From positions 2,604,001 to 2,668,000 of the forward strand of contig NZ_CP083451.1 of assembly GCF_020080045.1 (NCBI RefSeq): a stretch of DNA of 64,000 bases, given 5' to 3'. The notes beneath the pieces were generated by a model. It searched no databases. It saw only the letters and a program-made list of their open reading frames with translations, and was not told the origin of the DNA. Of this stretch, positions 458-13,727 are shown one piece after another (position 1 is the stretch's first letter; every line of letters starts with the position of its first letter). This DNA is from Comamonas odontotermitis (GTDB lineage: Bacteria; Pseudomonadota; Gammaproteobacteria; Burkholderiales; Burkholderiaceae_C). Both the position numbers and the translations under genes were made by a program.

Positions 458-1027
458 TTAGGTCAGCAGCTCTTTTAGATAAAGAGTGCTGGCATTGAAT
501 ACTTCACGCTTGTAAGGCTTATCTGGCAGCGTTTTCCCAATCTTCTCAATTTTAGGTACAGTTGGTTTTTTTTGCAAAAGGGCCGGTTTTCCACCATAAA
601 GAACCACAAAACGCTCTTGCAACGAAAATTTATGCCCATAAAAATCTTCCAACAAACCCAATGCATAACGAACAAACTGCCGCGTACTCTTGAATTGACC
701 GCAGTACCCAACCGGATTACCCGACTTCAAATCTATGTAGAGCGCAGTTAACTCCCTTTCCTTTGCGATCAGTACAACACAATCACAAGCCCGGTGATGG
801 TCATGCCCATTGCCAGCCGTCAACAGTGGCGACATTAGTGCGTTCCTCCCGCGCCCTTTATCAGGATTAAAACTGAACCATTCCCCATTCGGAGCCAGTA
901 GTTTCACTAGTTTTAACTTAGCGAGGGCGTCGTCCTCTTTAATCAATATGTTCGTGTGTTGATCACCACGGTATGTACAGCATGAAAGCGATAATCGTAA
1001 CGCCTCAAGCTCCGCAACTAAAGGCAT
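458..1027 (-). CDS. PD-(D/E)XK nuclease-like protein, partner of ATPase
   Basis: This 189-residue protein carries a plausible PD-(D/E)XK core: Asp82 (RACDCVVL), then YIDLKSG with Asp99 and Lys101, followed by Gln111 and a helical KSTRQFVRYALGLL segment. The start codon overlaps the stop of the upstream ATPase gene by one base (TGATG), so the two are very likely translationally coupled. ATPase plus separate nuclease is a common layout for anti-phage cassettes, but I could not match this pair to a named system. The nuclease call rests on motif reading only; the gene is certain, the function moderate. Confidence 0.6.
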   Translation of the reverse strand: MPLVAELEALRLSLSCCTYRGDQHTNILIKEDDALAKLKLVKLLAPNGEWFSFNPDKGRGRNALMSPLLTAGNGHDHHRACDCVVLIAKERELTALYIDLKSGNPVGYCGQFKSTRQFVRYALGLLEDFYGHKFSLQERFVVLYGGKPALLQKKPTVPKIEKIGKTLPDKPYKREVFNASTLYLKELLT

Positions 1028-2454
1028 CAGAGGTCACCCCCATACAAAATTTCACCTTGTATGGCATTCATGACCTCAATAGTGTCATCAAAAGTTTCTA
1101 CCTCAATTCCGCGATCAGGGTAGATATTAGCCAGCTTCAGCGTCCTTACTTTACCGCGCCGACCAGCACCAGTTGAGGGCTTTGCTATTGTTGCCGTCAT
1201 GTAAAGTCGAACAACTGCCGGATCAAGAAGTTCCTCATCTACATACTTGTATTGCTGCTGAACAGATCTCGTATGTTCTGTTCTTTGATGCAGCATGATC
1301 AGTGTATTTAACTCTTTGACCAAGTAGTCGCTGTGAGTCGTAATGAATACTTTGATACCTGCGTTGACCATACGCGCCACAAGCCGAGCAAAAGCTCGCT
1401 GATTCTTGGGATGAAGATTCAGTTCCGGCTCATCAATGATAAAAATATCACCGGAGCGCGCTCGGCATCGCAAGTAGAAACCAACATCCAGCAGGGCGCG
1501 AATACAACTCGACGCCTCATTCATCGTAAAGCGCTGTTTACCTGCACCTTTCGCCTGATAGACAAGCTCTTGTTTTACAACCTTATAACTGCCACCGATG
1601 ATGGCGTCGAAAGCGACTAATAATTCAGGATTATCCGCTGCCAGCTCCCCGGTTCTCTTGTCAATATCCTCAAGCTGTCTGACAAAATCAACGTTATCTT
1701 CAACTGGCCACGCATAATCAGTCTCAATTTCTTGAAGTATCTTAAAAGGATTTCTTCTGAGTTCTTTTGAATCAATCTGATTTATGGCCTTAAGCATACG
1801 AGTGCGAGCCATATCTAGCTCTTTACGGAAAATTGCTGCTCCCGTTCTTTCGGCACTGGATATGTGAACTCTAGGCAAATGCTGCGCGAAGACAATCTCA
1901 GCAATAGCGTCTACGATGAAATCGGTTAGCCCTCCGAAAGGGCGCATGATAACTTCTTCATCCGCCACCAACACTTCAAGCATAACGCTATCGGATTCTT
2001 TGGTTAAGGTGGCAAGAACTTTCCCCCCCGTGCCAGCCTTCACGGTTCGTTGAAACGCCTTACTTGAAATATCAGTTTCAAGGCAAGCACTTGGTATGAA
2101 TACTGTTTTTTCAAATATCTCAGCTTGGGTAGCGAACGCTCTCGGCAATCCGCCGACATAAATTTTACCCATTCTTTTCAAGTAGTCGTCGATCTTTCCA
2201 TCGAACATCGCCCCAAGATCGATACGATATTGATTAGAATCTTTTAAAAGGGTGTCAATTTCGTCTTCTATAACTACACGAAGTATTTGCCTCCAACTGC
2301 GCAAAAAACCATACACTGCATAAGTTGCGTAAGTTTTACCCGTGTTATTTTCTCCGCATATAAGCGTGAGATTAGCTAGCTCCAGGTCAACCTGATCTAG
2401 TAAGCCGAGATTTTCAAATTGAAAGTGCATCAGCGCTACGCTCCGTTTTATCAT
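1027..2454 (-). CDS. AAA/ABC-type ATPase (OLD/AAA_15-like), probable defence
   Basis: This 475-residue ATPase has Walker A GENNTGKT (34-41), a signature-like NEASSCIRALLDVG (312-325), Walker B DIFIIDEPE (336-344) and a histidine switch ITTHSDYLV (371-379). The order and spacing are those of SMC/OLD-like ABC ATPases with a long inserted middle region. No TOPRIM nuclease domain follows, unlike OLD or GajA; the next gene may supply the nuclease. Met9 (2430) is an alternative start that places the beta strand closer to the N-terminus. Base composition is clearly more AT-rich than the chromosome, as is usual for island cargo. Confidence 0.8.
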   Translation of the reverse strand: MIKRSVALMHFQFENLGLLDQVDLELANLTLICGENNTGKTYATYAVYGFLRSWRQILRVVIEDEIDTLLKDSNQYRIDLGAMFDGKIDDYLKRMGKIYVGGLPRAFATQAEIFEKTVFIPSACLETDISSKAFQRTVKAGTGGKVLATLTKESDSVMLEVLVADEEVIMRPFGGLTDFIVDAIAEIVFAQHLPRVHISSAERTGAAIFRKELDMARTRMLKAINQIDSKELRRNPFKILQEIETDYAWPVEDNVDFVRQLEDIDKRTGELAADNPELLVAFDAIIGGSYKVVKQELVYQAKGAGKQRFTMNEASSCIRALLDVGFYLRCRARSGDIFIIDEPELNLHPKNQRAFARLVARMVNAGIKVFITTHSDYLVKELNTLIMLHQRTEHTRSVQQQYKYVDEELLDPAVVRLYMTATIAKPSTGAGRRGKVRTLKLANIYPDRGIEVETFDDTIEVMNAIQGEILYGGDL

Positions 2455-2673: not shown

Positions 2674-2856
2674 CTATTTACGCGCGAAAACAACTTGGCT
2701 CATTTTGGCTCTGATTTCTGACTGCATAACGCTGAACTCAATCATCAGATTCTCCACGTCTATGGATGTGCGCCTTCCCCTCGGCGCGGCAACAACCACA
2801 ATTTTAGCAGTCCAGCTACCCGCCCGAGATTTCCATTCAGCTTCACAAGCACGCAT
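2674..2856 (-). CDS. small hypothetical protein
   Basis: This is a 60-residue frame with an in-frame stop just upstream of the ATG, so this is the only reasonable start. The product is basic and has no recognised domain. It lies between the ATPase promoter and oriT. No strong ribosome-binding site was seen and the opposite strand also has an open frame here, so existence as a gene is uncertain. Confidence 0.3.
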   Translation of the reverse strand: MRACEAEWKSRAGSWTAKIVVVAAPRGRRTSIDVENLMIEFSVMQSEIRAKMSQVVFARK

Positions 2857-3014
2857 ACCGCTTCAAGGTCAGCCCGAGACCATATCTGCCGATTCAGCCC
2901 TACCGCTCTCAGAAATGCAGAGCAGGACAACCCCTTGGACGATCCGCTTCTCCCTTTGGTGCTTTGTCCTCTTTTATCCCAAACTCCAAGCGCGATTGGT
3001 GAGACGCGGCAGCG

Positions 3015-3125
3015 ACCGTCAGCCTCGCAGAGCAGGATGCCATCGAGCCGCAGGCGAGTAAGGGGCGGTGGTGGAGGCCTTAGCTGCGTAGCAGCGTAGG
3101 CCTACAACACACATCTTGCCTGCTA
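3015..3125 (+). other. oriT: oriT, IncP (RK2)-like, with predicted nic at 3118/3119
   Basis: Bases 3020-3038 (CAGCCTCGCAGAGCAGGAT) match my memory of the RK2 oriT region exactly. Downstream, GAGTAAGGGGCGGTG resembles RK2 GAATAAGGGACAGTG, then comes an inverted repeat (arms AGGCCTTAGCTGC and GCAGCGTAGGCCT, 3075-3103), then GGCCTAC and CACACATCTTGCC, in the same order as RK2 GGCCTAC and TTCACCTATCCTGCC. CATCTTG|C fits the MOBP consensus YATCYTG|Y, putting nic after base 3118. No relaxase gene is present in the island, so cleavage should be by a helper relaxase. Confidence 0.75.
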
Positions 3126-3180
3126 CCTCTCTGCGATTCTATGCGACTGGAGCAGAATCGCCAGTAAAATATGGCGTAAT

Positions 3181-3276
3181 CGCGTACATTCGCGCTAATT
3201 CGCATACACTCGCGTAGCATCGCATTAATCAATTCTTCTAATCGCATAGAATCGCATACATTCGCATAAAAACGCG
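3181..3276. repeat. 10-bp phased CGC repeat array beside nic
   Basis: CGC begins at 3181, 3191, 3201, 3211 and 3221, then at 3243, 3253, 3263 and 3273. That is one copy per 10 bases with a single 22-base step. The local consensus is TCGCRTANAN, with AT-rich filler. Ten-base phasing puts every copy on the same face of the helix and would favour bending. In RK2 the accessory protein TraK binds a bent region next to nic, so an accessory-protein binding site is a reasonable inference. Confidence 0.7.
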
Positions 3277-3455
3277 TTTCCGACTGAGTTCATGAGCATC
3301 AAGGACGGACTGACACCAAAAGGAGGGGGCTTTGAGAGGCCATCAGCTAGGCCAGCCAAATCTAAGTCTTGTAAATTGCTCGACCCGGGTGAGAACATAG
3401 CCTCCGTTTACGCGCTTTTTTCGAAACTCGATCATCAAGAAACAACGGAGTAATC

Positions 3456-3665
3456 ATGGCACGAAAAACCCTCGCAGAGCGCCGTTCTGATGCCCTTTCG
3501 GAGCTTGAAATGGCGAAAGCCAGATTGGCAAAACTCGACAATGAGGCAGCCGAAAGAATCGGAAGAATTGCAATAAAGTCAGGATTGGTTAATCTTGAGC
3601 TTACGGACGATCAAGTCCGAGAAGAATTCGACAAAATCGTGGAAAGGATTAGCAAGGGGAATTGA
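3456..3665 (+). CDS. TraC-like conjugal transfer accessory protein
   Basis: This small 69-residue protein is predicted to be mostly helical: a charged N-terminal coiled-coil segment followed by ERIGRIAIKSGLVNLELTDDQVREEF. The 'RIGRIA.KAGL' pattern is that of TraC-like oriT-proximal proteins of Ti and related plasmids (TraCD group), which assist relaxosome function. It has a good ribosome-binding site (GGAG at 3447-3450) and is the first gene after oriT and the phased array, the position of traK in RK2. Its start is clear; its exact role is inferred. Confidence 0.6.
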   Translation: MARKTLAERRSDALSELEMAKARLAKLDNEAAERIGRIAIKSGLVNLELTDDQVREEFDKIVERISKGN

Positions 3666-3667
3666 TC

Positions 3668-3892
3668 ATGAAGACAGCTCACCGCATCAGCGCATTGGCC
3701 AATCAACTCAACGAACTGCAAGCCTGCCTCGGTCGAGCCAGTGGACGGCCTAGCAAGAGCGTTATGGAAGCCCAGCGCATAGCGGCCGAGCTGGCTTCTT
3801 CACTCGAAGATTGGCACCTTGAAACGCTACACATCCCTGAACCGGAGCGTGACCTTTATCGCGCACAGAATCCCTATTACGCTGCCCACTGA
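3668..3892 (+). CDS. small hypothetical island protein
   Basis: This 74-residue product starts at ATG 3668, two bases after the stop of the TraC-like gene, with AAGGGGA just upstream; an in-frame TTG at 3662 would overlap that stop. The product (MKTAHRISALANQLNELQAC...) appears helical with no signal peptide or recognised domain. Tight coupling to the TraC-like gene suggests a role in mobilisation. A terminator follows at once. Confidence 0.55.
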   Translation: MKTAHRISALANQLNELQACLGRASGRPSKSVMEAQRIAAELASSLEDWHLETLHIPEPERDLYRAQNPYYAAH

Positions 3893-3911
3893 CGCCGCGC
3901 ACCGCCTTATC

Positions 3912-3964
3912 AAAAGCTCACTTCGGTGGGCTTTTTTTGTCCGCAAAACGTATCAAACCGGACA
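3912..3964 (+). terminator. terminator plus TGTCCG inverted pair (copy 1)
   Basis: GCTCAC-TTCG-GTGGGC followed by seven T residues forms a rho-independent terminator for the two small genes upstream. It runs directly into TGTCCGCAAA (3938-3947) and an inverted CGGACA (3959-3964). The whole block from CACTTCGG onwards is repeated in inverted orientation at 9779-9822 behind the integrase gene. Confidence 0.7.
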
Positions 3965-4034
3965 GCCGAGCCCCTTTCACGCGTCAAGAAAAACGCGATC
4001 AAAATCATAGCGTTGAGAAACAATCTCGTGAAGA

Positions 4035-4095
4035 TTGACGGACAGTTTACGGACATAAATCATTGAATTCTATGCGGATACAAGATTATCCGCAT
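4035..4095 (+). promoter_or_regulatory. operator/promoter region of trbJ operon
   Basis: Two direct half-sites, TTGACGGACA (4035-4044) and TTTACGGACA (4046-4055), are spaced 11 bases apart. The same paired motif occurs on the other strand at 8135-8155 in oriV (TTGACGGACA and TTGGCGGACA). Further on is a perfect 9-bp inverted repeat, ATGCGGATA (4072-4080) and TATCCGCAT (4087-4095), with a 6-base loop. TTTACGGACA begins 115 bases before the trbJ ATG, nearly the same distance as upstream of alpA. These are strong operator candidates; the regulator is unknown. Confidence 0.55.
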
Positions 4096-4127
4096 ATTTA
4101 AAACCGCTCCATATCGGTCAATAATCA

Positions 4128-4160
4128 AACCTCGGACGATGACAAAATGAGGTATTCGGT
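4128..4160 (+). promoter_or_regulatory. trbJ leader, duplicated upstream of alpA
   Basis: The 33 bases before the trbJ start (AAACCTCGGACGATGACA, then AAATGAGGTATTCGGT) are almost identical to the leader of alpA on the minus strand at 9580-9612, differing at two positions. The GAGGTATTCGGT block contains the ribosome-binding site in both cases. Confidence 0.7.
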
Positions 4161-4952
4161 ATGGAAATGGAATCGCAAAAAACGTCGGCTTATGCCGCCC
4201 GAAAATTCGGTCGAGGCGCGGCGCTCGCTCTAGCAATGGCGAGCGCAGGCCTTGGTGTAAGTCTCTACATGGCACCGGCTCCGGCCTATGCCATCTACTG
4301 CTCGAACTGCTCTACGTTCTATCAGCAGATGTACGAATACGCCGAAGCGGTGAATACGCAACTGAACACCGCGCAGCAGTTGCAGACGCAGATCCAGCAG
4401 TACGACAACATGATTAAGCAGGGCATGTCACTGCCCAGCCGCATGTTCAACACCATCACTGGCGACCTCCAGCGCGTGGCCAGCGTCTACAACTCGGCGC
4501 AGTCGCTCGGCCGCAACATCAGCAATCTGGACGAACAGTTTCGCCAGCAGTTCAAGGGCTATGACAGCTATCTGAACTCGATTGGCCAAGGGCAAAACAA
4601 CATGCCGCAGCGCTATCGGGACTGGGCACAATCCGGCTTCGATAACGCCCGCACGGCCATGCAGGCCGCTGGCGTGAATACCAGCACATTCGAGGATGAG
4701 AACGCGATGCTGGACCAGTTGGTAAGCCGTTCACAGTCGGCCGTTGGTCGCCAGCAGGCCATTCAAGCAGGGAACGAGATTGCGGCGCAGAACGTGCAGC
4801 AGCTCCAGAAGCTGCGCGATCTGGTGGCCACACAGATCACCCTGCAAGGCAACTACATGGCGCAGCAAAACGAACGACAGTCCGTTAGCGATGCCTCCGA
4901 ACAGCAATTCCGCAGCCGTGAAAATACACGCGGCCCGTCTGAGGGGTTCTAA
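4161..4952 (+). CDS. trbJ: P-type conjugative transfer protein TrbJ
   Basis: TrbJ is the VirB5-like periplasmic/pilus-tip component of IncP mating-pair formation. The 263-residue product has a long signal peptide cleaved near AYA-IYC (44/45), a Cys47-xx-Cys50 pair at the mature N-terminus, and Gln-rich helical repeats (TQLNTAQQLQTQIQQYDNM) typical of the family. The start at 4161 follows GAGGTATTC at good spacing; Met3 is an alternative. It is first in a tight operon with the trbK-position gene and trbL. Its C-terminal tail FRSRENTRGPSEGF is repeated in the next protein. Confidence 0.88.
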   Translation: MEMESQKTSAYAARKFGRGAALALAMASAGLGVSLYMAPAPAYAIYCSNCSTFYQQMYEYAEAVNTQLNTAQQLQTQIQQYDNMIKQGMSLPSRMFNTITGDLQRVASVYNSAQSLGRNISNLDEQFRQQFKGYDSYLNSIGQGQNNMPQRYRDWAQSGFDNARTAMQAAGVNTSTFEDENAMLDQLVSRSQSAVGRQQAIQAGNEIAAQNVQQLQKLRDLVATQITLQGNYMAQQNERQSVSDASEQQFRSRENTRGPSEGF

Positions 4953-4954
4953 CC

Positions 4955-5137
4955 ATGATGATTTCTAAGGCGCTGATTGCCGCCCTCTGTCTCGTCTCGG
5001 CCCTTGGTGGGTCGGCACTGACGGCCGTGGTCGTCACGAACGCCGCCGCGCCGGAATGCGCAGCGGTCGGCAATGGCCATCAGGATGACCAATTCCGCAG
5101 CCGCCCAAACACTCGCGGCCCGTCTGAGGGGTTCTGA
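4955..5137 (+). CDS. small exported protein at the trbK position
   Basis: This 60-residue protein has an N-terminal hydrophobic signal/anchor (ALIAALCLVSALGGSALTAVVV) and lies two bases after trbJ and two before trbL, exactly where RP4 has trbK, the entry-exclusion lipoprotein. No clear lipobox cysteine is seen, so lipidation is doubtful. Its last 15 residues (FRSRPNTRGPSEGF and flanks) repeat the end of TrbJ, and the DNA matches over about 47 bases (4904-4951 and 5089-5136), implying a recent tail duplication. An entry-exclusion role is inferred from position only. Confidence 0.6.
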   Translation: MMISKALIAALCLVSALGGSALTAVVVTNAAAPECAAVGNGHQDDQFRSRPNTRGPSEGF

Positions 5138-5139
5138 CT

Positions 5140-6783
5140 ATGCGACGTTCAACCGTTTACGCACTTGTCGGCGCGGTGCTCTTGCTATCCGCAACTAGTG
5201 CGATGGCTGCCGGGGTCGATTTGGCGCAGAGCAACACGTCTATGAACAGCCTTCTGCGGCTGATTCAGAACGCTTCAAACCAATGGGCACCGCGCCTGCA
5301 TGATTACGCCTTGTGGCTCTTGGGATGCCTTGCCGTCATCCAGTTAGTTTGGACTTTTGCTCCTTTGGTCATGCGCGGGGCTGAACTGGGCGACATCCTC
5401 CATGAACTGGTGAAATTCATCCTCGTGATAGGGTTCTTCTATGCGATGCTCGATCACGCGACCGAGTGGGGCGGGGCCATCGTCAACAGCTTCCGGCAGG
5501 CCGGGGCGCACGCGGCAGGGTTGGGTAGTGCGGAGCTGATGCCGGGGGATATGTTCTCAACTGCTGTGGACTTTTCACGGCAGGTGCTGACGGCCGGTGT
5601 TTCGATGTTCAGCCCAATCACATCGGTTGTGGTGGCCGTATCTGCATTGATCGTCCTGATGTGTTTTACGTTTATAGCGGCTCTGGTGTTCGTGACGCTG
5701 GTAGAGGCCTACGTCATCATCAATGCCGCCGTCCTGTTTATGGGTTTCGGTGGCTCTCAATGGACACGCGAATATGCACTGGCTCCCATTCGCTATGCCG
5801 TTGCGGTAGGTGCCAAGCTGTTTGTCCTGACTCTGATTGTGGGTCTGATCATGCAGGTTTCCGCAGAATGGTCGGCAGCCTACACCAACGACGAAGCGTC
5901 GTTGATGACCTTGGTCGGCCTGTCTTTGGTGTGCGCCTACCTGACCAAAACCATCCCTGAACTGATCGGCGGCATGATTAGCGGCACGTCGATGGGCGGC
6001 GGCTCTGCAATTGGGGGCATGGCCGCAGCCGGTGCAGCCGGTGCGGCGGCCGCAGTCGCTACTGTTGCAACAGCAGGGGCAGCAGCCCCGGCCGCAGGAG
6101 CACTAGGGGCCGCAGGAACTGGCGGAGGCGCTGCCAGTGCCGCGGGTGGTGGACTGGCCTCCGCACTGAACGCCAGCATGGCAGGCGGCAGTACCGCAGG
6201 GGGCATCGGTGGTGCGACGGGCGTCAGCAGCGCTGGAATTGGCGCAAGCACAGGAGGGGGCACCGGTGCGGCCGCAAAGGCCGCAGGTTCTCGCGTCGGG
6301 GGTGGTGCCGCGTCAGGATCGGCGAATCCAGTGTCGGCGGCCGCTTCGCCAGCTAGCCAAAAAGCAGGCAGCGGCTTGAAACAAGCCGCCAAACAGGCCG
6401 GAAGAGCGGCCAAGGGCGGTGACGACGATACGGATCAGCAGGCCGTCGCTCAGCAACGGCAGATGACACCAAAAGAAGGGACCGGCGGCAACGGCAAGGT
6501 TGTTGCGCAGGGCGCCGAGGTGGCCACACGGGCGCTTGGCGTGCTGGGCGCTATCAGCGTACCCGGTATGGAAAGCTCCCACGGGCTTTCGCTCGGGGGC
6601 ACCGGGTCTCCCCCTCCCGTCCCCGGCGGCGACAGTCCAACGCCTGATGACGGCGCAGAGCCGACTACACAAGCGGAATCCAACATTATTCGTCCGACAT
6701 CGGACACAGCTAGGACCGGAAATGTCGGCGCGCTCAATGTGCCCGGCATGGATTCTGGCGTTAACTCTCAATCGGAGGCGTAA
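5140..6783 (+). CDS. trbL: P-type conjugative transfer protein TrbL
   Basis: TrbL is the VirB6-like polytopic inner-membrane component of the mating channel. The 547-residue product has an N-terminal signal-like helix, then several transmembrane segments (LHDYALWLLGCLAVIQLVW, FILVIGFFYAML, SALIVLMCFTFIAALVFVTL, LFVLTLIVGLIM) over residues 1-285. A very long Gly/Ala-rich, Pro/Thr-containing cytoplasmic tail follows, as in other TrbL proteins. It starts two bases after the trbK-position gene. Other Trb components (TrbB-I) are missing from the island. Confidence 0.88.
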   Translation: MRRSTVYALVGAVLLLSATSAMAAGVDLAQSNTSMNSLLRLIQNASNQWAPRLHDYALWLLGCLAVIQLVWTFAPLVMRGAELGDILHELVKFILVIGFFYAMLDHATEWGGAIVNSFRQAGAHAAGLGSAELMPGDMFSTAVDFSRQVLTAGVSMFSPITSVVVAVSALIVLMCFTFIAALVFVTLVEAYVIINAAVLFMGFGGSQWTREYALAPIRYAVAVGAKLFVLTLIVGLIMQVSAEWSAAYTNDEASLMTLVGLSLVCAYLTKTIPELIGGMISGTSMGGGSAIGGMAAAGAAGAAAAVATVATAGAAAPAAGALGAAGTGGGAASAAGGGLASALNASMAGGSTAGGIGGATGVSSAGIGASTGGGTGAAAKAAGSRVGGGAASGSANPVSAAASPASQKAGSGLKQAAKQAGRAAKGGDDDTDQQAVAQQRQMTPKEGTGGNGKVVAQGAEVATRALGVLGAISVPGMESSHGLSLGGTGSPPPVPGGDSPTPDDGAEPTTQAESNIIRPTSDTARTGNVGALNVPGMDSGVNSQSEA

Positions 6784-6785
6784 TC

Positions 6786-7112
6786 ATGATGAACGATGTA
6801 TTTTTTGGCCTGATGATGCTCGGCGGCTTTTTTGTTCTCGGTATTGGTATGTGGGCGCTTGGCCAATGGCTCCGACGCAAAGGCTTTGGCCCGCAGCTCG
6901 ATGCACTGGATAAGCAGTACACGGCACTACAGCATCGGGTGAACCGATTGGCTCTGCCTGCCGCTGCGCATTTCTACGGCGGCATGGGTATGCTTAATCG
7001 CATGCCACTTTTCGGCAGCAAGAATCAGGTGGTATTGGTAGAGCGTGTGAGAATGGCCATCCTTCAGATGGAAGAGGAAGAACGGCAGCGACGCAGGGTC
7101 ATCAATCGCTGA
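6786..7112 (+). CDS. membrane-anchored protein of the trb operon
   Basis: This 108-residue protein has one N-terminal transmembrane helix (FGLMMLGGFFVLGIGMWAL) followed by a basic, helical soluble part ending in a charged EMEEEERQRRR-type segment. It begins two bases after trbL and ends just before the operon terminator, so it is very likely co-expressed with the transfer genes. I do not recognise the family; it does not look like TrbM or TrbN. Confidence 0.7.
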   Translation: MMNDVFFGLMMLGGFFVLGIGMWALGQWLRRKGFGPQLDALDKQYTALQHRVNRLALPAAAHFYGGMGMLNRMPLFGSKNQVVLVERVRMAILQMEEEERQRRRVINR

Positions 7113-7138: not shown

Positions 7139-7167
7139 AACCCCGCCTGAGTGCGGGGTTTTGTTTT
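7139..7167 (+). terminator. terminator of trbJKL operon
   Basis: AACCCCGC-CTGAGT-GCGGGGTT followed by TTGTTTT is a clear rho-independent terminator 26 bases after the last gene of the operon. Confidence 0.85.
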
Positions 7168-7914
7168 CCTGCCGCAGCATCTCCGTCTATTACACACCGC
7201 AAAAACGGCCTGTATCGCTCTGTGAGAAGTTTTCACACATGACAGTCACAACAACATTCCGACACTGAAAAAACGCCGCCACGGCCCATACAGCAGGGAT
7301 TTTGGACGCTTTCGCAGGCCGTAAGAGGCCTTATGTCGATTTTGGCCCTGCCCTTCCCTTTTTGGTGCCTGATCGTCTTTTTGCCGGTTTCAACGGCTCG
7401 ACCAGGTGCTGCGACCGGTGGGTAATCCACGGAACTAGCCGCGTCGGCGACGGCAGGCCCGCCCTACTTTTTTGGTGCCCAACGGCCGTAGGCCGACCAA
7501 GAGCAGCAAGCTAGGAGCTGCGCCATCAAGGCGCGGCACTTAGCGCGCATGCTGGAGATTCTTAGAGAATCTTAGATGGAATTTGCGAACGGCCCGCAAA
7601 CGCCCGCCGTTGCTGGGTTTTCAGAAACCGGCCGGGCGCCGTTAAACAGGGGGTGGGGTGCCGTTAAACAGGGGGGAGCGGCGTTACGGTCGGATGCCTT
7701 GGGTCGCCCGTTTCTCCTTTGCCCTTAGCGTACTCGTCCAGCCTCCAACCCACGGCAGCAAGCTCGGCCAGCGCCTTGGGGCGGAGCGAACGCCTTTCAT
7801 GAGGGAGGGGAGCTGCCGCGAAGCGGTGGGAACCCCGCAAGGGGCCACGCTTTTGGATCGTGGCGCGATTTCGCACGAATAGGAGTTCCGAACTAACGGA
7901 TGGGGGCCATCGAC
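7168..7914. other. long non-coding stretch preceding oriV
   Basis: No convincing gene was found; short frames on both strands overlap each other and lack ribosome-binding sites. It contains two TTTTTGGTGCC boxes (about 7360 and 7467), a short ATTCTTAGAGAAT hairpin near 7558, and the GTTAAACAGGGGG direct repeats described separately. A regulatory RNA or replication accessory sites are possible, but nothing here proves either. Confidence 0.4.
7638..7676 (+). repeat. paired GCCGTTAAACAGGGGG direct repeats
   Basis: GCCGTTAAACAGGGGG occurs at 7638-7653 and again at 7660-7675, a 22-base period that matches the 21-22-base period of the oriV iterons further on. The motif is different from the RepA iteron. 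A second iteron class or a regulator site is possible. Confidence 0.45.
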
Positions 7915-8209: not shown

Positions 8210-9268
8210 TTAGGAACCGCCCAGCGGTTCCGACGAGGAATTGCGGTGCCTCATGACCAGTAGAGGGCCATCCTTCCCCGCTTCTTCGCACAAGGCATAT
8301 TCAGGCAGGTCATCGGCTTTGATGATCCCGCGAAGGAAGAAACAGAATTTTTTGAACGAGCCACCGCTTCCACTGCGTTCGTAAAGGGTCTTGAAAGCCC
8401 ATTTAGCGCTATCCCTGCCTGCGGCACGGCGAGCCAGTCGGTAGATAAAGCGTCCTATGCCCGGCTCGATCAGAAAGTAGTCCCGGTGTACTGTAAGTAC
8501 CTCCGGCCGCTTGCCCTCGGTGACTTCTCGATAAATCCACTCCGGGGCTTCAATCTCGACAGAACTTATCTTCTTGGTGTCCGTGCGTGACAGAACACGA
8601 TAGCGCGCGATCAGCCCCTCGGCTTCGGTTGTCCGGAACTTGCCGCTTTCGCGCACTGTCTTGATGGTAGTACCCCGCAACCGATCTAGCGCGGCTTCCA
8701 CTCCCTTAACCTGACTACTACCGTTACCACGTCGGGCAAATCTGAGGATGTCGCTAACATGCAGCCGAAACACTCTCCCCGGCTTGCCACCCTTTCCTTC
8801 TCGATAGCGGTTCATAGCTTCGGTCAAGTGAGACACCATCATCAGCACAATGTCGTAGTCCCAAATGGAGGCCATTCCGTGCGCTCCTGCGGACACTTCC
8901 ACGTATCCATCCGGCAGGTCGTAGCGGATCAGTTCTCCGGCTCGCTTGTCCTTCTTGGATAAACGGAACACGGCCACATCCATGACGCTGCGATTGTCGC
9001 GGCCGCCCACGTCATAAAGGCTGGGCGCAAAAAAATCTGGCTGAGCGTCGCCTTGTGGAGGCTTGCGGACAAGTGACAACGCTTTGTCCCGCTCTTTTGC
9101 CCTTTCCATCTGTTCATGCACGGTCGAGACGTTAGACGGTCTACCGCGTTCAGCAGCCGGAGTTCGGTCACTGTTCCGCTTCCTGATATTTTCAAGGCGT
9201 TCCAGTAGCCCGCCAGAGTCGCCTATTACCGCGCCTATGGGCTTAAGACCGCTGTTTCGGCTACTCAT
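8210..9268 (-). CDS. repA: replication initiator RepA (RPA family)
   Basis: This 352-residue protein resembles the RPA-family initiators of IncW-type plasmids: a charged N-terminal 90 residues, then FFAPSLYDVGGRDNRSVMDVAVFRLSK, IRYDLPDGYVEV, MASIWDYDIVLMMVSHL and the C-terminal winged-helix region RDYFLIEPGIGRFIYRLARRAAG. It should bind the iterons just beyond its own stop codon and recruit host replication proteins. The ribosome-binding site is weak. It lies 80 bases downstream of alpA on the same strand and may be read from the alpA promoter. Confidence 0.85.
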   Translation of the reverse strand: MSSRNSGLKPIGAVIGDSGGLLERLENIRKRNSDRTPAAERGRPSNVSTVHEQMERAKERDKALSLVRKPPQGDAQPDFFAPSLYDVGGRDNRSVMDVAVFRLSKKDKRAGELIRYDLPDGYVEVSAGAHGMASIWDYDIVLMMVSHLTEAMNRYREGKGGKPGRVFRLHVSDILRFARRGNGSSQVKGVEAALDRLRGTTIKTVRESGKFRTTEAEGLIARYRVLSRTDTKKISSVEIEAPEWIYREVTEGKRPEVLTVHRDYFLIEPGIGRFIYRLARRAAGRDSAKWAFKTLYERSGSGGSFKKFCFFLRGIIKADDLPEYALCEEAGKDGPLLVMRHRNSSSEPLGGS

Positions 9269-9348: not shown

Positions 9349-9579
9349 TCAGGCCCCCATTCCGGGACGAGGGGCCGGGCTGGAATGTTTGCACGCATCA
9401 ATCCATGCCTCGACCTCCGCCAAATCCCACACGACCTTGCGGCTACTGAGCGCAATGCGCTGAGGAAATTTCCCCTGCTTTTCAAAGTTGTAGATCGTGC
9501 GCTCGCACAGCGGAATCATCTCCAGCAGCTGCTTTTTGCTAATGAGAACTTTACTTGCTCTCCTTAATTCTTTTTCCAC
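9349..9579 (-). CDS. alpA: AlpA-family excision/transcription regulator
   Basis: This 76-residue winged-helix protein has the AlpA/MerR-like pattern ISKKQLLEMIPLCERTIYNF then KFPQRIALSSRKVVWDLAEVEAWI, as in regulators and directionality factors of integrative elements. It starts at GTG (9579), with GAGG at good spacing; the leader matches that of trbJ almost base for base. It lies between int and repA, all on the minus strand. It probably controls excision and may regulate the shared operator motif; both are inferences. Confidence 0.8.
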   Translation of the reverse strand: MEKELRRASKVLISKKQLLEMIPLCERTIYNFEKQGKFPQRIALSSRKVVWDLAEVEAWIDACKHSSPAPRPGMGA

Positions 9580-9863: not shown

Positions 9864-11072
9864 TCAGTCCTTGAGGCGGGTCTTCCTGATTGTCCACTCG
9901 TCGATCATGTCGGCCCAATCTTGGAGCATCGCCCGGCGCTGATCGCGGTACTCGGCCTTGTTGTAGATGGCACGAACGCCCTTCTGTTCGTGCGCAAGGC
10001 ACTTCTCGATCCAGTCGGTGTTATAGCCCGCCTCATGCAACAGCGTGCTGGCTGTGCGCCGCAAGTCGTGCGGTCCAAACTTGCCAAGTGACTGCCCTTC
10101 CTTCTGGGCCAGCCGATAGGTAAGGGTAAGCACCTGATTGAGCGTTGCGCTGCTCATCGGCAAGTCTGAGTCATAACGTGATGGCAGAATGTATTCCGAA
10201 CCGCCGGCGAAGGTCTTCAGCGCGATGAAAATATCCAGCGCCTGCCTCGACAGGAACACCAAATGGGGATTGCGGCGCTTCATCCGCTCCTTGGGGATTG
10301 TCCAGAGCGCGTCGGTGAAATTGATTTCGTTCCACGTTGCGTTGGTCAGTTCGCTTTTGCGAACCATCGTTAGCAACAGCAGCTTGGCAGCCGCTCGAAT
10401 TGAAGGTGTGGTGCCGATACGCTCCATGTACTGGTACATCAAGCCAATTTCCTCGGGCGTCAGTGCTCGATCTCGCGGCTCAAACTTGGCGATAGTTGAC
10501 GGGCGCACCAAATCGGCCGGGTTCTCAACCTTCTGTCCGCGTTCGATAGCCCAGCGGAAGACCTGCATCATAATTTCGCGGCAAAGCACGGCCGTTGATG
10601 GCCTGCCTTGTTCCACGATGGCATCAGTCAGCGCCCGCAAGTCCTCGTGGGTAATTTCTATCAGTTTCCTGTTGCTGAATTTCGGCTTTAGCTCTCGCTC
10701 GTATGTTCCACGGCGCATGTCGCGGGTGGAATCTGCCATTTGATAGCCGCGCAACCACTTCTCGGCCCACGCGCCGAATGTCTCAGCATCCTTGACGCGG
10801 GCTTTGTCCCGCGCTTTCTCCTTGGCTGGAGATTTCCCTGCGGCGATCATCTTCTTGGCTTCGCCCAGCCGTTCGCGAGCTTCCGCTAGCGTGATCCCTC
10901 CGACACCATAGCGGCCGAAGGTGATGGTCTCTTGCCTGCCGTGGATCGAGTAGTTGTAGCGGAACGAAATCGAACCCGCAGGGGTGATGGCCACGTAGAG
11001 GCCGTCACGGTCATTCACTTTGTACAGCTTGTCCTTTGGCTTGAGGTTGCGCAGCTTGGTATCAGTCAGCAT
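9864..11072 (-). CDS. int: P4-type tyrosine integrase of the guaA island
   Basis: This site-specific recombinase integrates and excises the island at guaA. It has the N-terminal DUF4102-like domain (LTDTKLRNLKPKDKLYKVND, GLYVAITPAGSISFRYNY), a core-binding SAM-like domain, and the catalytic domain with Arg in MVRKSEL, Lys in ERMKRRNPH, HDLRRTAST and the tyrosine in GVRAIYNKAEY. I chose the start at Met 11072 (MLTDTKLRNL...), the usual start for the family; an upstream ATG at 11120 would add 16 residues. It lies beside the intact guaA end, as expected. Confidence 0.92.
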   Translation of the reverse strand: MLTDTKLRNLKPKDKLYKVNDRDGLYVAITPAGSISFRYNYSIHGRQETITFGRYGVGGITLAEARERLGEAKKMIAAGKSPAKEKARDKARVKDAETFGAWAEKWLRGYQMADSTRDMRRGTYERELKPKFSNRKLIEITHEDLRALTDAIVEQGRPSTAVLCREIMMQVFRWAIERGQKVENPADLVRPSTIAKFEPRDRALTPEEIGLMYQYMERIGTTPSIRAAAKLLLLTMVRKSELTNATWNEINFTDALWTIPKERMKRRNPHLVFLSRQALDIFIALKTFAGGSEYILPSRYDSDLPMSSATLNQVLTLTYRLAQKEGQSLGKFGPHDLRRTASTLLHEAGYNTDWIEKCLAHEQKGVRAIYNKAEYRDQRRAMLQDWADMIDEWTIRKTRLKD

Positions 11073-11094
11073 GGTCGGGTTGGGTTTCCTCTCA

Positions 11095-11245
11095 AAAATA
11101 CCATGCTCAAAAAGCCCCACAAATCCTCAAAAAACTTCTTTAAGGACAATGCGTTACCTAAATTCGATACCATGAACACCCCATCAGAGGCGGCATGGTA
11201 TCGAGCGCCGAACATGGCATCAGGTTCAAATCGTACCATCTACCA
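11095..11245. repeat. TACCATG repeats between int and attR (arm-type sites?)
   Basis: ATACCATG occurs near 11097, again inside CGATACCATG (11165-11174) and inverted as CATGGTATCG (11194-11203), forming a 10-bp perfect inverted repeat. More partial copies (TACCATC, TACCATG) lie at 11234-11247. Repeated short sites between an integrase gene and the core att site are the usual layout of integrase arm sites, though an int autoregulatory operator is also possible. Confidence 0.5.
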
Positions 11246-11380: not shown

Positions 11381-11395
11381 TCACTCCCACTCAAT
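11381..11395. repeat. attR: att repeat at 3' end of guaA
   Basis: This copy of TCACTCCCACTCAAT encodes the last residues and stop of GuaA (ATTGAGTGGGAGTGA on the minus strand). It is identical to 127-141. Because the repeat restores the coding end, guaA stays intact after integration. Confidence 0.85.
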
Positions 11396-13029: not shown

Positions 13030-13470
13030 TCAGAAATCTTCGGGCGCCAGCAGTGCAATGCCGCGCTTTTTTGCAGCAGCCTGCTGGGCTTGGTCAAAAG
13101 TGGCCAGCGGCAGGCGCAACGATTGCGCCAGCCACAGATAGGCGGCATCGTAAACAGGCAATCCGGTATCCAGCGCCACATCGAGCACGGCCTTGTGCTG
13201 CGCGGGAGCGAGATCGTGCAACTCCACGCGGTGGCGTATGGCCTCCAGCACGCTCCACAGGCCTTCAACGCTGGTGGTGGGGATGCGGCCGTTGTTCACT
13301 CCCGATGCGATCAGGTTTCCGCACTCCCATTGCCAGAGGTTGGGGGCCTGCGGATCAACTTCGTCGCGGCGGATACGGGTGTAGAGGCGCTGGGTATGCG
13401 GGCTGGCGTTGTCGGGCAACAACCAGGCGGCGGTGACTGTGGCGTCCAGAATGAAGGCCGTTGCGCTCAT
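13030..13470 (-). CDS. vapC: PIN-domain toxin VapC
   Basis: This 146-residue PIN-domain ribonuclease retains all four acidic positions: Asp9 (ILDATV), Glu49 (WECGN), Asp108 (PVYDAAYLWLA) and Asp126 (ATFDQA). Its start overlaps the end of the antitoxin gene by four bases (13467-13470). PIN toxins of this type cleave tRNA or rRNA and are held inactive by their partner. It ends 32 bases before guaA on the same strand. Confidence 0.88.
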   Translation of the reverse strand: MSATAFILDATVTAAWLLPDNASPHTQRLYTRIRRDEVDPQAPNLWQWECGNLIASGVNNGRIPTTSVEGLWSVLEAIRHRVELHDLAPAQHKAVLDVALDTGLPVYDAAYLWLAQSLRLPLATFDQAQQAAAKKRGIALLAPEDF

Positions 13471-13727
13471 GCCTGGCTCCTGCCTGTCTGGCGCATGGCT
13501 GCTACACCATTCGCAGCATCTGGCGCGCGAACAGTCTGCTGCAGCGCGTGAATCTGCTGCAATTCCCGGGCAATCTGCTCATCGGTGATCACGGGCTTGC
13601 GGCGCACCGGCAGCATGCGCACGACTTCCTTGCCGTGCCGTGTGATGCGCACTTCCTCGCCCTGCTCCACCGCCTCGATCAGAGCGGAGAAGCGGGTCTT
13701 GGCTTCGTAGATACCAACAGATTGCAT
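13467..13727 (-). CDS. vapB: Phd/YefM-type antitoxin VapB
   Basis: This 86-residue antitoxin begins SVGIYEAKTRFSALIEAVEQGEEVRITRHGKEVVRMLPV, the standard Phd/YefM DNA-binding fold, with an extended C-terminal part that should wrap the toxin. It is first in the vapBC pair. A long inverted repeat starts 15 bases upstream of its start and is the obvious autoregulatory operator. Confidence 0.88.
   Translation of the reverse strand: MQSVGIYEAKTRFSALIEAVEQGEEVRITRHGKEVVRMLPVRRKPVITDEQIARELQQIHALQQTVRAPDAANGVAAMRQTGRSQA

Follow-up and report, generated by a model that had tools for sequence, protein, structure and literature searches.

The 64,000-nucleotide stretch of DNA analysed here (the window) contains a complete 11.25-kb relative of the genomic island GIsul2, integrated at the 3′ end of guaA with both ends inside the window (Table 1). 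Judging from its sequence and that of its relatives, this island seems, on balance, to be mobilised by plasmids of the pSN1216-29 group, with its own trb block changing the exclusion identity of the borrowed channel. Use of the helper, incorporation of island subunits into its channel and the change of exclusion are inferred together. In the proposed mechanism, the integrative mobilizable island would excise via its own integrase, helper TraI and TraJ would process its oriT, and the helper coupling protein and channel would export its DNA. Four island subunits (TrbJ including its tail, TrbK, TrbL and their small partner) would replace or mix with the helper VirB5, exclusion and VirB6 proteins. 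The resulting machine would have an exclusion identity unlike that of the helper, such that helper-holding cells could be entered while cells with the same island type would refuse entry. A first-pass annotation had proposed channel hijacking with altered entry exclusion, and this is the reading best supported by the oriT, gene order, selection, cassette swap and tails described below; RK2/RP4, its suggested helper, is probably not the natural one.

Table 1. Features of the guaA island (window positions)
Feature	Position	Strand	Evidence or remark
Attachment repeat TCACTCCCACTCAAT, outer end	127-141	none	identical 15 bp at 11381-11395; GAGTGGGA core
Cargo, PD-T4-4 B-like phage-defence protein	458-1027	-	PADLOC PDLC04034, 6.7e-98
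Cargo, PD-T4-4 A-like ATPase	1027-2454	-	PADLOC PDLC04033, 8.9e-210
traJ remnant, two frames	about 2677-2945	-	tblastn with TraJ proteins
oriT	3005-3135	+	match to pSN1216-29 (see text)
Inverted repeat, expected TraJ site	3068-3087/3091-3110	+	arms 80% complementary
Array of eight TCGCR words	3180-3266	+	spacings 10,10,10,10,22,10,10
TraC-like small protein	3456-3665	+	PF07820 4.6e-09, above its cut-off
76-aa ORF, kept in related loci	3662-3892	+	dN/dS 0.13-0.29
trbJ (VirB5-like)	4161-4952	+	TIGR02780, E=1.4e-92; intact
trbJ variable tail	from about 4875	+	last 25 residues
trbK-position ORF, 60 aa	4955-5137	+	C-terminus repeats TrbJ tail
trbL (VirB6-like)	5140-6783	+	TIGR02783 3.1e-108; PF04610 2e-25; intact
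Fourth operon gene	6786-7112	+	30.8% over 104 aa, 1.7e-17, to pSN1216-29 ORF between virB6 and virB8
Terminator-like hairpin and T-run	7139-7160	+	hairpin scan
Replication initiator A	8210-9268	-	PF10134 8.9e-65; 62.5% to pSN1216-29 RepA
AlpA-like regulator	9349-9579	-	helix-turn-helix regulator annotation in relatives
Tyrosine integrase	9864-11120	-	NF007246 1.7e-46, below its cut-off; relatives annotated integrase
Attachment repeat TCACTCCCACTCAAT, guaA 3′ end	11381-11395	none	second copy of 15-bp repeat
guaA	11381-12997	-	3′ end is the island integration site

The idea that such islands reshape a helper is already published. Guédon 2017 proposed, in the passages drawn on here, that the guaA island GIsul2, with TrbJ, TrbK, TrbL and no relaxase, reshapes an IncP helper, and extended the proposal to the “IncP island” (PMC5704250). 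New here are the pSN1216-29-type oriT, the traI/traJ survey of 18 loci, the cassette swap and the TrbJ/TrbK tail match. The window's island shares with GIsul2, as partial accounts describe it, a position at the 3′ end of guaA and repeats having a GAGTGGGA core (PMC9376610), and the trbJ-trbK-trbL genes, AlpA and lack of a relaxase (PMC9376610, PMC5704250). The integrase is 88.6% identical over 394 aa to that of the GIsul2 copy in pAB3 (L006), and AlpA 64.6%. The two differ in cargo (sul2/ars in GIsul2, PD-T4-4 here) and in replication (repA/repC versus RPA-type). The IncP island of Burkholderia glumae and relatives, likewise listed at guaA with trbJ, a small ORF and trbL, is described in the same partial account as having its own MobP relaxase, TraJ and TraK (PMC5704250), whereas the window's island has no traI and a broken traJ.

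The reported absence of relaxase and coupling-protein genes was borne out: pSN1216-29 relaxase, coupling-protein and VirB4 sequences gave no tblastn match in the window's first 13.5 kb. Profile searches of the host genome found no PF03135 (VirB4) or PF03432 (relaxase) match, and its sole PF04610 match is the island TrbL; a conjugative helper is absent from the present host genome. The host here is Comamonas-like, while a whole-island copy at 99.7% occurs in 2 of 5,426 E. coli genomes, an indirect hint of excision and transfer. IS421 is inserted in trbL of one E. coli island copy.

The first-pass annotation had called the oriT RK2-type. The block itself is real, with its inverted repeat and ATCTTG/CC at 3118/3119, the position proposed earlier as nic. 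By analogy with RK2, the repeat at 3068-3110 is the expected TraJ site, and nic is expected at 3118/3119. The RK2 label is too narrow: alignment to the RK2-type oriT of pBS228 covers only 57 bp at 78.9%, versus 96.9% over 131 bp for pSN1216-29, a whole-oriT match that includes the TraJ-site repeat, and RK2 is thereby ruled out as the closest oriT. Words similar to the TCGCR array also lie between oriT and traK of pSN1216-29. Across 18 sister loci, nine have traI and traJ, six traJ alone, two a broken traJ (the window's island, itself counted, is one of these) and one neither. In island L084, TraJ is identical to that of pSN1216-29-group plasmids, and traI-traJ-oriT is 98.1% identical to pSN1216-29 over 2,516 bp, so the two kinds of element come into contact and recombine.

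The subunit genes point the same way. The plasmid list for TrbJ is headed by the pSN1216-29 group (62.8%), which is also among the best plasmid matches of TrbL (53-56%, N-terminal half), equalled in score there by Nitrosomonas and Nitrosospira plasmids. The group's B5-67aa-B6-101aa order is that of trbJ-small ORF-trbL-small ORF in the island. Given the oriT match, TrbJ/TrbL kinship and common gene order, pSN1216-29-group plasmids are probably better helper candidates than RK2/RP4, and literature searches found no earlier assignment of this group as island helper. These plasmids also carry a related RepA; they differ from the island in having full transfer machinery, no integration and other TrbJ/TrbK tails. 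That IncP-1 plasmids (RK2/RP4) are the natural helpers, as proposed in print (PMC5704250, in the portion consulted) and in the first-pass annotation, is in keeping with the similar oriT layout; the short oriT match and the 38-45% identity of RK2-type TraJ to 12 compared island and pSN1216-29-group TraJ proteins make it highly unlikely. With a concrete helper family named, the proposal of 2017 on island mobility, open until now, can be put to the test. Counting against the proposed mechanism, identity between island and helper subunits is only moderate.

Profile matches and ORF coordinates agree that trbJ, the trbK-position gene and trbL are intact in one operon, as first annotated. The terminator ascribed to the operon is present as a hairpin and T-run, weak evidence alone since the scan gave 4 such sites versus 4.7 expected by shuffling. 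The description “only VirB5/VirB6-like genes” overlooked the fourth operon gene, the TraC-like gene and the broken traJ. The trbK-position ORF lies between trbJ and trbL and has a hydrophobic N-terminus, as expected of a TrbK exclusion protein. The lipobox pattern [LVI][ASTVI][GAS]C, as in RP4 TrbK, was not found by eye in its 60-aa sequence, and it gave no BLAST match to the 67-aa ORF of pSN1216-29. An AlphaFold2 model of TrbJ was set aside (mean pLDDT 39.1), and three solved structures matched by sequence (E 0.24-0.85) are not relatives.

Both trbJ (dN/dS 0.02-0.07) and the N-terminal part of trbL (0.06-0.11), compared with L005, L009 and L011, were shown to be under purifying selection. The ratio is 0.34 for the trbK-position ORF versus L011, and for the fourth gene 0.17 versus L009 and 0.88 versus L005, the latter from very few changes. 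Low trbJ/trbL ratios across loci from several genera rule out decay of the trb genes, so that their being functionless remnants is extremely improbable, despite the broken traJ and the IS421 insertion in one E. coli copy.

In three sister loci (L012, L084 and L085), the trb block has been exchanged as a cassette, with its left edge immediately before the TrbJ C-terminal tail. The TrbJ body is 97-98% identical, but the tail falls to 40%, TrbK to 35% and the TrbL N-part to 60%. By BLAST, DNA identity of 93-94% returns at 7183 in all three; this right edge rests on BLAST because the aligned stretch is too short for it to be visible in 40-bp windows. The trb block is read as an exclusion-specificity cassette. 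Island and helper subunits are homologous but diverged, and mismatched subunits could instead poison the helper channel, reducing helper transfer to the island's advantage. Such interference is quite unlikely, leaving unexplained both the joint change of TrbJ tail, TrbK and TrbL and the matching tails.

TrbK, the exclusion protein, carries the TrbJ C-terminal tail again at its own C-terminus. The last seven residues are identical between a locus's own TrbJ and TrbK in 17 of 18 island loci, and the pSN1216-29-group tail occurs in none of the 18. Across divergent systems, TrbJ/VirB5 tails match the tails of their own TrbK/Eex (33 non-redundant systems; 0 of 20,000 permutations). A match at p<0.05 is lacking in 11 of 35 systems. 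Mechanical rules yielded candidates for a TrbJ-small ORF-TrbL set at 66 of 91 loci, including some wrong picks (e.g. L031, L037, L041); L096 was added, 61 loci passed strict limits on the gaps and the requirement of a hydrophobic N-terminus, and 20 remained once TrbJ at ≥70% identity was removed. Five of six fetched EexN plasmids were used, L144 (IncX4) being left out as its eex does not adjoin virB5; R46 and R388 are also in this sample. Among 30 PF07996 loci, eight had a candidate small ORF and seven were kept. In RP4, TrbK lacking its eight C-terminal residues is said to have lost exclusion in work by Haase in 1996.

It is tentatively suggested, as a possibility somewhat short of likely, that TrbK/Eex proteins of MPF_T systems exclude by displaying in the recipient a copy of the C-terminal tail of the donor pilus-tip protein TrbJ/VirB5 as an exclusion allotype, probably read by the VirB6-type channel protein TrbL, and that guaA islands trade tail, TrbK and TrbL in a single cassette, escaping exclusion by helpers and rival islands. 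No earlier report of a shared VirB5/Eex tail was found among titles, abstract openings and passages, which included few subscription papers. If true, tail copying of a donor tip protein by TrbK would be a candidate rule for MPF_T self-recognition, directly testable, and would explain why TrbJ as well as TrbK shields recipients from RP4. One passage holds the TrbK C-terminal region essential and says that this IncP exclusion protein has no known donor partner (PMC8923210). Part of another account reports that recipients were protected against the RP4 channel by either protein, TrbJ or TrbK, on its own (PMC11045733). This last observation, like the phage-defence cargo, would suit a role confined to host protection, in which incoming plasmids are kept out by TrbK, perhaps aided by TrbJ, TrbL is passive and no helper is remodelled. 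That role is unlikely: it would need neither trbL nor the fourth gene, yet trbL is under purifying selection and is swapped jointly with trbK.

For a borrowed channel with altered exclusion, the analogy with SGI1 drawn in the first-pass annotation is apt. SGI1 also carries a few channel genes, including an exclusion partner of the VirB6/TraG kind, and its TraG-S, functional at 37% identity, disables IncC exclusion, according to the sections consulted (PMC5389848). SGI1 differs in its F-type channel and IncC helper, and kinship is not claimed. Against the borrowed-channel reading, VirB5 was no substitute for TrbJ-TrbK in RP4 (PMC11045733). A further precedent is ICERspD18B, a guaA island with trbJ-trbK-trbL that is recorded as having reached E. 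coli at 2.76e-7.

The trb block and oriT lie within a complete integrated island of ~11.25 kb. Its left part carries a PD-T4-4-like phage-defence pair, a frame-broken traJ remnant, oriT, a TraC-like gene and a 76-aa ORF, followed by trbJ, a 60-aa ORF (TrbK), trbL, a 108-aa ORF and a terminator-like hairpin, and on the right by a RepA-type initiator, an AlpA-like regulator and a tyrosine integrase. The adjoining GuaA finds its nearest named match in Comamonas terrae (97% identity). The whole island recurs at 99.7% identity in 2 of 5,426 E. coli genomes, and 164 have a match to at least part of the query, including the widespread integrase region that it spans. In sister islands the cargo slot holds other defence-like genes, by annotation only: SIR2 plus ATPase (L085), TIR (L088) or restriction-modification (L089).

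Features of the island and its surroundings (window positions unless a locus is named)
Feature	Position	Remark
Left end repeat	127-141	TCACTCCCACTCAAT
Defence pair	458-2454	island cargo
oriT	3005-3135	
TCGCR words	3180-3266	eight, spaced 10 bp apart save one gap of 22; between nic and TraC-like gene
TrbK	4955-5137	60 aa
Fourth operon gene	6786-7112	108 aa
Right end repeat	11381-11395	TCACTCCCACTCAAT; 3′ end of guaA
Two small minus-strand ORFs	13030-13727	between guaA and IMP dehydrogenase-like ORF; toxin-antitoxin-like by eye
IS421	L004:7633-8745	in trbL of a near-identical E. coli copy

GIsul2, a guaA island described as carrying TrbJ, TrbK and TrbL but no relaxase, is proposed to reshape the channel of IncP helpers on the model of SGI1 (PMC5704250). 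The first-pass annotation, which read the oriT with trbJ and trbL as a possible hijacker of a helper's channel, reached the same proposal independently. The island is a new, reduced member of the GIsul2 kind whose mechanism had already been proposed; this analysis adds a better-fitting helper candidate and a putative exclusion code that is new and testable. For a related element, ICERspD18B, transfer to E. coli from a Rheinheimera donor is reported at a frequency of 2.76e-7 per donor (PMC7775301).

The putative code would reside in a tail shared by TrbJ and TrbK. In the window, TrbJ ends in QFRSRENTRGPSEGF and the 60-aa protein in QFRSRPNTRGPSEGF; IncP-1 plasmids show the same pattern in other letters, GSYRASPSKTW (TrbJ) with GGFKPSEKKEW (TrbK) in pBS228 and GSYRASPARTW with GDFKPSPKREW in R751. 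In a set of 20 non-redundant operons, own tails have a mean local score of 40.7 vs 19.0 for cross pairs, the own-tail value being reached by 0 of 20,000 permutations, and the best site of the TrbK tail in the whole of TrbJ is the extreme C-terminus in 13 of the 20. No such signal is seen in four controls on these operons: TrbJ tail against TrbK head, head against head, TrbJ middle against TrbK tail, and TrbL head against TrbK tail. Because the idea arose from these operons, further systems were collected afterwards. Seven VirB5-EexN pairs from IncN, IncW, IncX1, IncX3 and a Vibrio plasmid, including R46 and R388, which had been examined before, score 24.3 (own) vs 12.7 (cross; 8 of 20,000 permutations); with seven more loci the values are 19.7 vs 11.4 (0 of 20,000). 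In the merged set, TrbJ/VirB5 identity cut-offs of <70%, <40% and <30% leave 33, 14 and 11 systems, and at each the own-pair mean is reached by 0 of 20,000 permutations.

Matching tails are common, not a universal rule. Against shuffled TrbK tails, the own match stands at p<0.01 in 20 of 35 systems and at p<0.05 in 24. The 11 unmatched systems (L027, L046, L051, L055, L063, L070, L074, L113, L136, L138, L139) mostly have long or different small ORFs. Matches are weak in R46, R388, L145 and L146 (0.016-0.046); in L146 and L145 the best site is 28 and 62 residues, respectively, away from the end of VirB5. The own TrbK ranks first for just 10-12 of the 23 TrbJ tails, because tails resemble one another among related systems.

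Published facts fit a reading in which the tail is displayed. The C-terminal region of TrbK is described as essential for exclusion, and IncP TrbK as having no known donor partner (PMC8923210); TrbJ or TrbK in the recipient is reported to protect from the RP4 channel (PMC11045733), and VirB5 to sit on VirB6 before pilus assembly and at the pilus tip (PMC12624023). A donor VirB6-type protein would read the VirB5 tail, and TrbK in the recipient would present the same tail and thereby stop the step with which DNA transfer begins. With its own tail, TrbK and TrbL, an island would change the exclusion 'password': island carriers and helper-holding cells would admit each other, and island carriers would exclude cells with the same cassette.

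In three sister islands these parts were exchanged as a unit. TrbJ of L012, L084 and L085 is 97-98% identical up to its last 25 residues, whereas identity is 40% in those residues, 35% in TrbK and 60% in the TrbL N-part. DNA identity in 40-bp steps falls from 0.92 (4801) through 0.80 (4841) to 0.48 (4881), for many E. coli genomes the megablast alignment breaks off at 4875, and 93-94% identity restarts at 7183; the TrbJ tail, TrbK, TrbL and fourth gene were therefore swapped together. Two other types, whose TrbJ body differs too (68-75%), do not reveal this edge. Tails in the 18 island loci fall into RGPSEGF (9), PGPSKGF (3), RGGVKGY/RGGVKEY (3) and WGPSEDF (3). The four cassettes occur, at coverage of at least 80%, in 24, 33, 3 and 5 of 5,426 E. 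coli genomes, all chromosomally. The helper plasmids examined end in TGSNKGY, TGTNKGY or TGENKGY; helper-like tails are few among 115 full-length TrbJ homologues compared irrespective of gene context (TGSNKGF 1, TGRDKGF 1). Relative to L005, L009 and L011, trbJ of the window has a dN/dS of 0.02-0.07, the trbL N-part one of 0.06-0.11 and the TraC-like gene one of 0-0.05; values are less clear for the 76-aa ORF (0.13-0.29), TrbK (undefined, 0.00, 0.34) and the 108-aa ORF (0.88 vs L005, at dS 0.014; 0.17 vs L009).

The helper candidate is the group of pSN1216-29, reported as self-transmissible and broad-host-range (PMC6232296), despite which MOB-suite types it 'mobilizable'. The window oriT shares 96.9% identity with those of pSN1216-29 and pJHX613, 96.2% with that of a Salmonella plasmid from the group, 83.6% with L016 and L017, and 80.8% and 76.4% with L020 and L022 over 127-130 bp; an RK2-type oriT aligns over 57 bp (78.9%). 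Among plasmids the group has the closest TrbJ (62.8%); its TrbL N-terminal half, at 53-56%, is equalled by some Nitrosomonas and Nitrosospira plasmids. pSN1216-29 matches the four-gene order, with a related fourth gene (30.8%, 1.7e-17) and a RepA of 62.5% identity; its 67-aa ORF gives no BLAST match to the window's 60-aa ORF. In the Stenotrophomonas plasmid L018 (NZ_CP043565; 22.8 kb) the trb set is near-complete and the oriT 87% similar, and the annotation lists neither a relaxase nor a coupling protein.

Among the 18 island loci (14 including the integrase; the examined stretch of L007, L008, L010 and L012 either stops short of it or does not contain it), nine retain the N-terminal two-thirds of traI with traJ (L007, L009, L012, L014, L084, L086, L087, L089, L090), six traJ without traI (L005, L008, L010, L011, L013, L088), two a broken traJ (window, L004) and L085 neither. 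Within the stretches examined, none matches the helper coupling protein or VirB4. Over 2,516 bp, the traI-traJ-oriT segment of L084 shares 98.1% identity with pSN1216-29, and TraJ is identical, so DNA does pass between islands and plasmids of this group. The oriT half to the left of nic reassorts with the first bases to the right, and all four combinations occur among islands and plasmids (L002-L022, L084-L090): the CCYTAGCTGCG repeat type with TGCTACC (window, L003, L004) or GTACTGC (L084), and the ACTGGTGCGGG type with TGCTACC (L005) or GTACTGC (L007, L012, L085, L086, L087, L089, L090); further variants exist. This mosaic suggests recombination at or near nic, perhaps with the relaxase as agent, and ordinary homologous recombination could give it too. 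The TCGCR words possibly form a binding array for a TraK/TraC-like protein.
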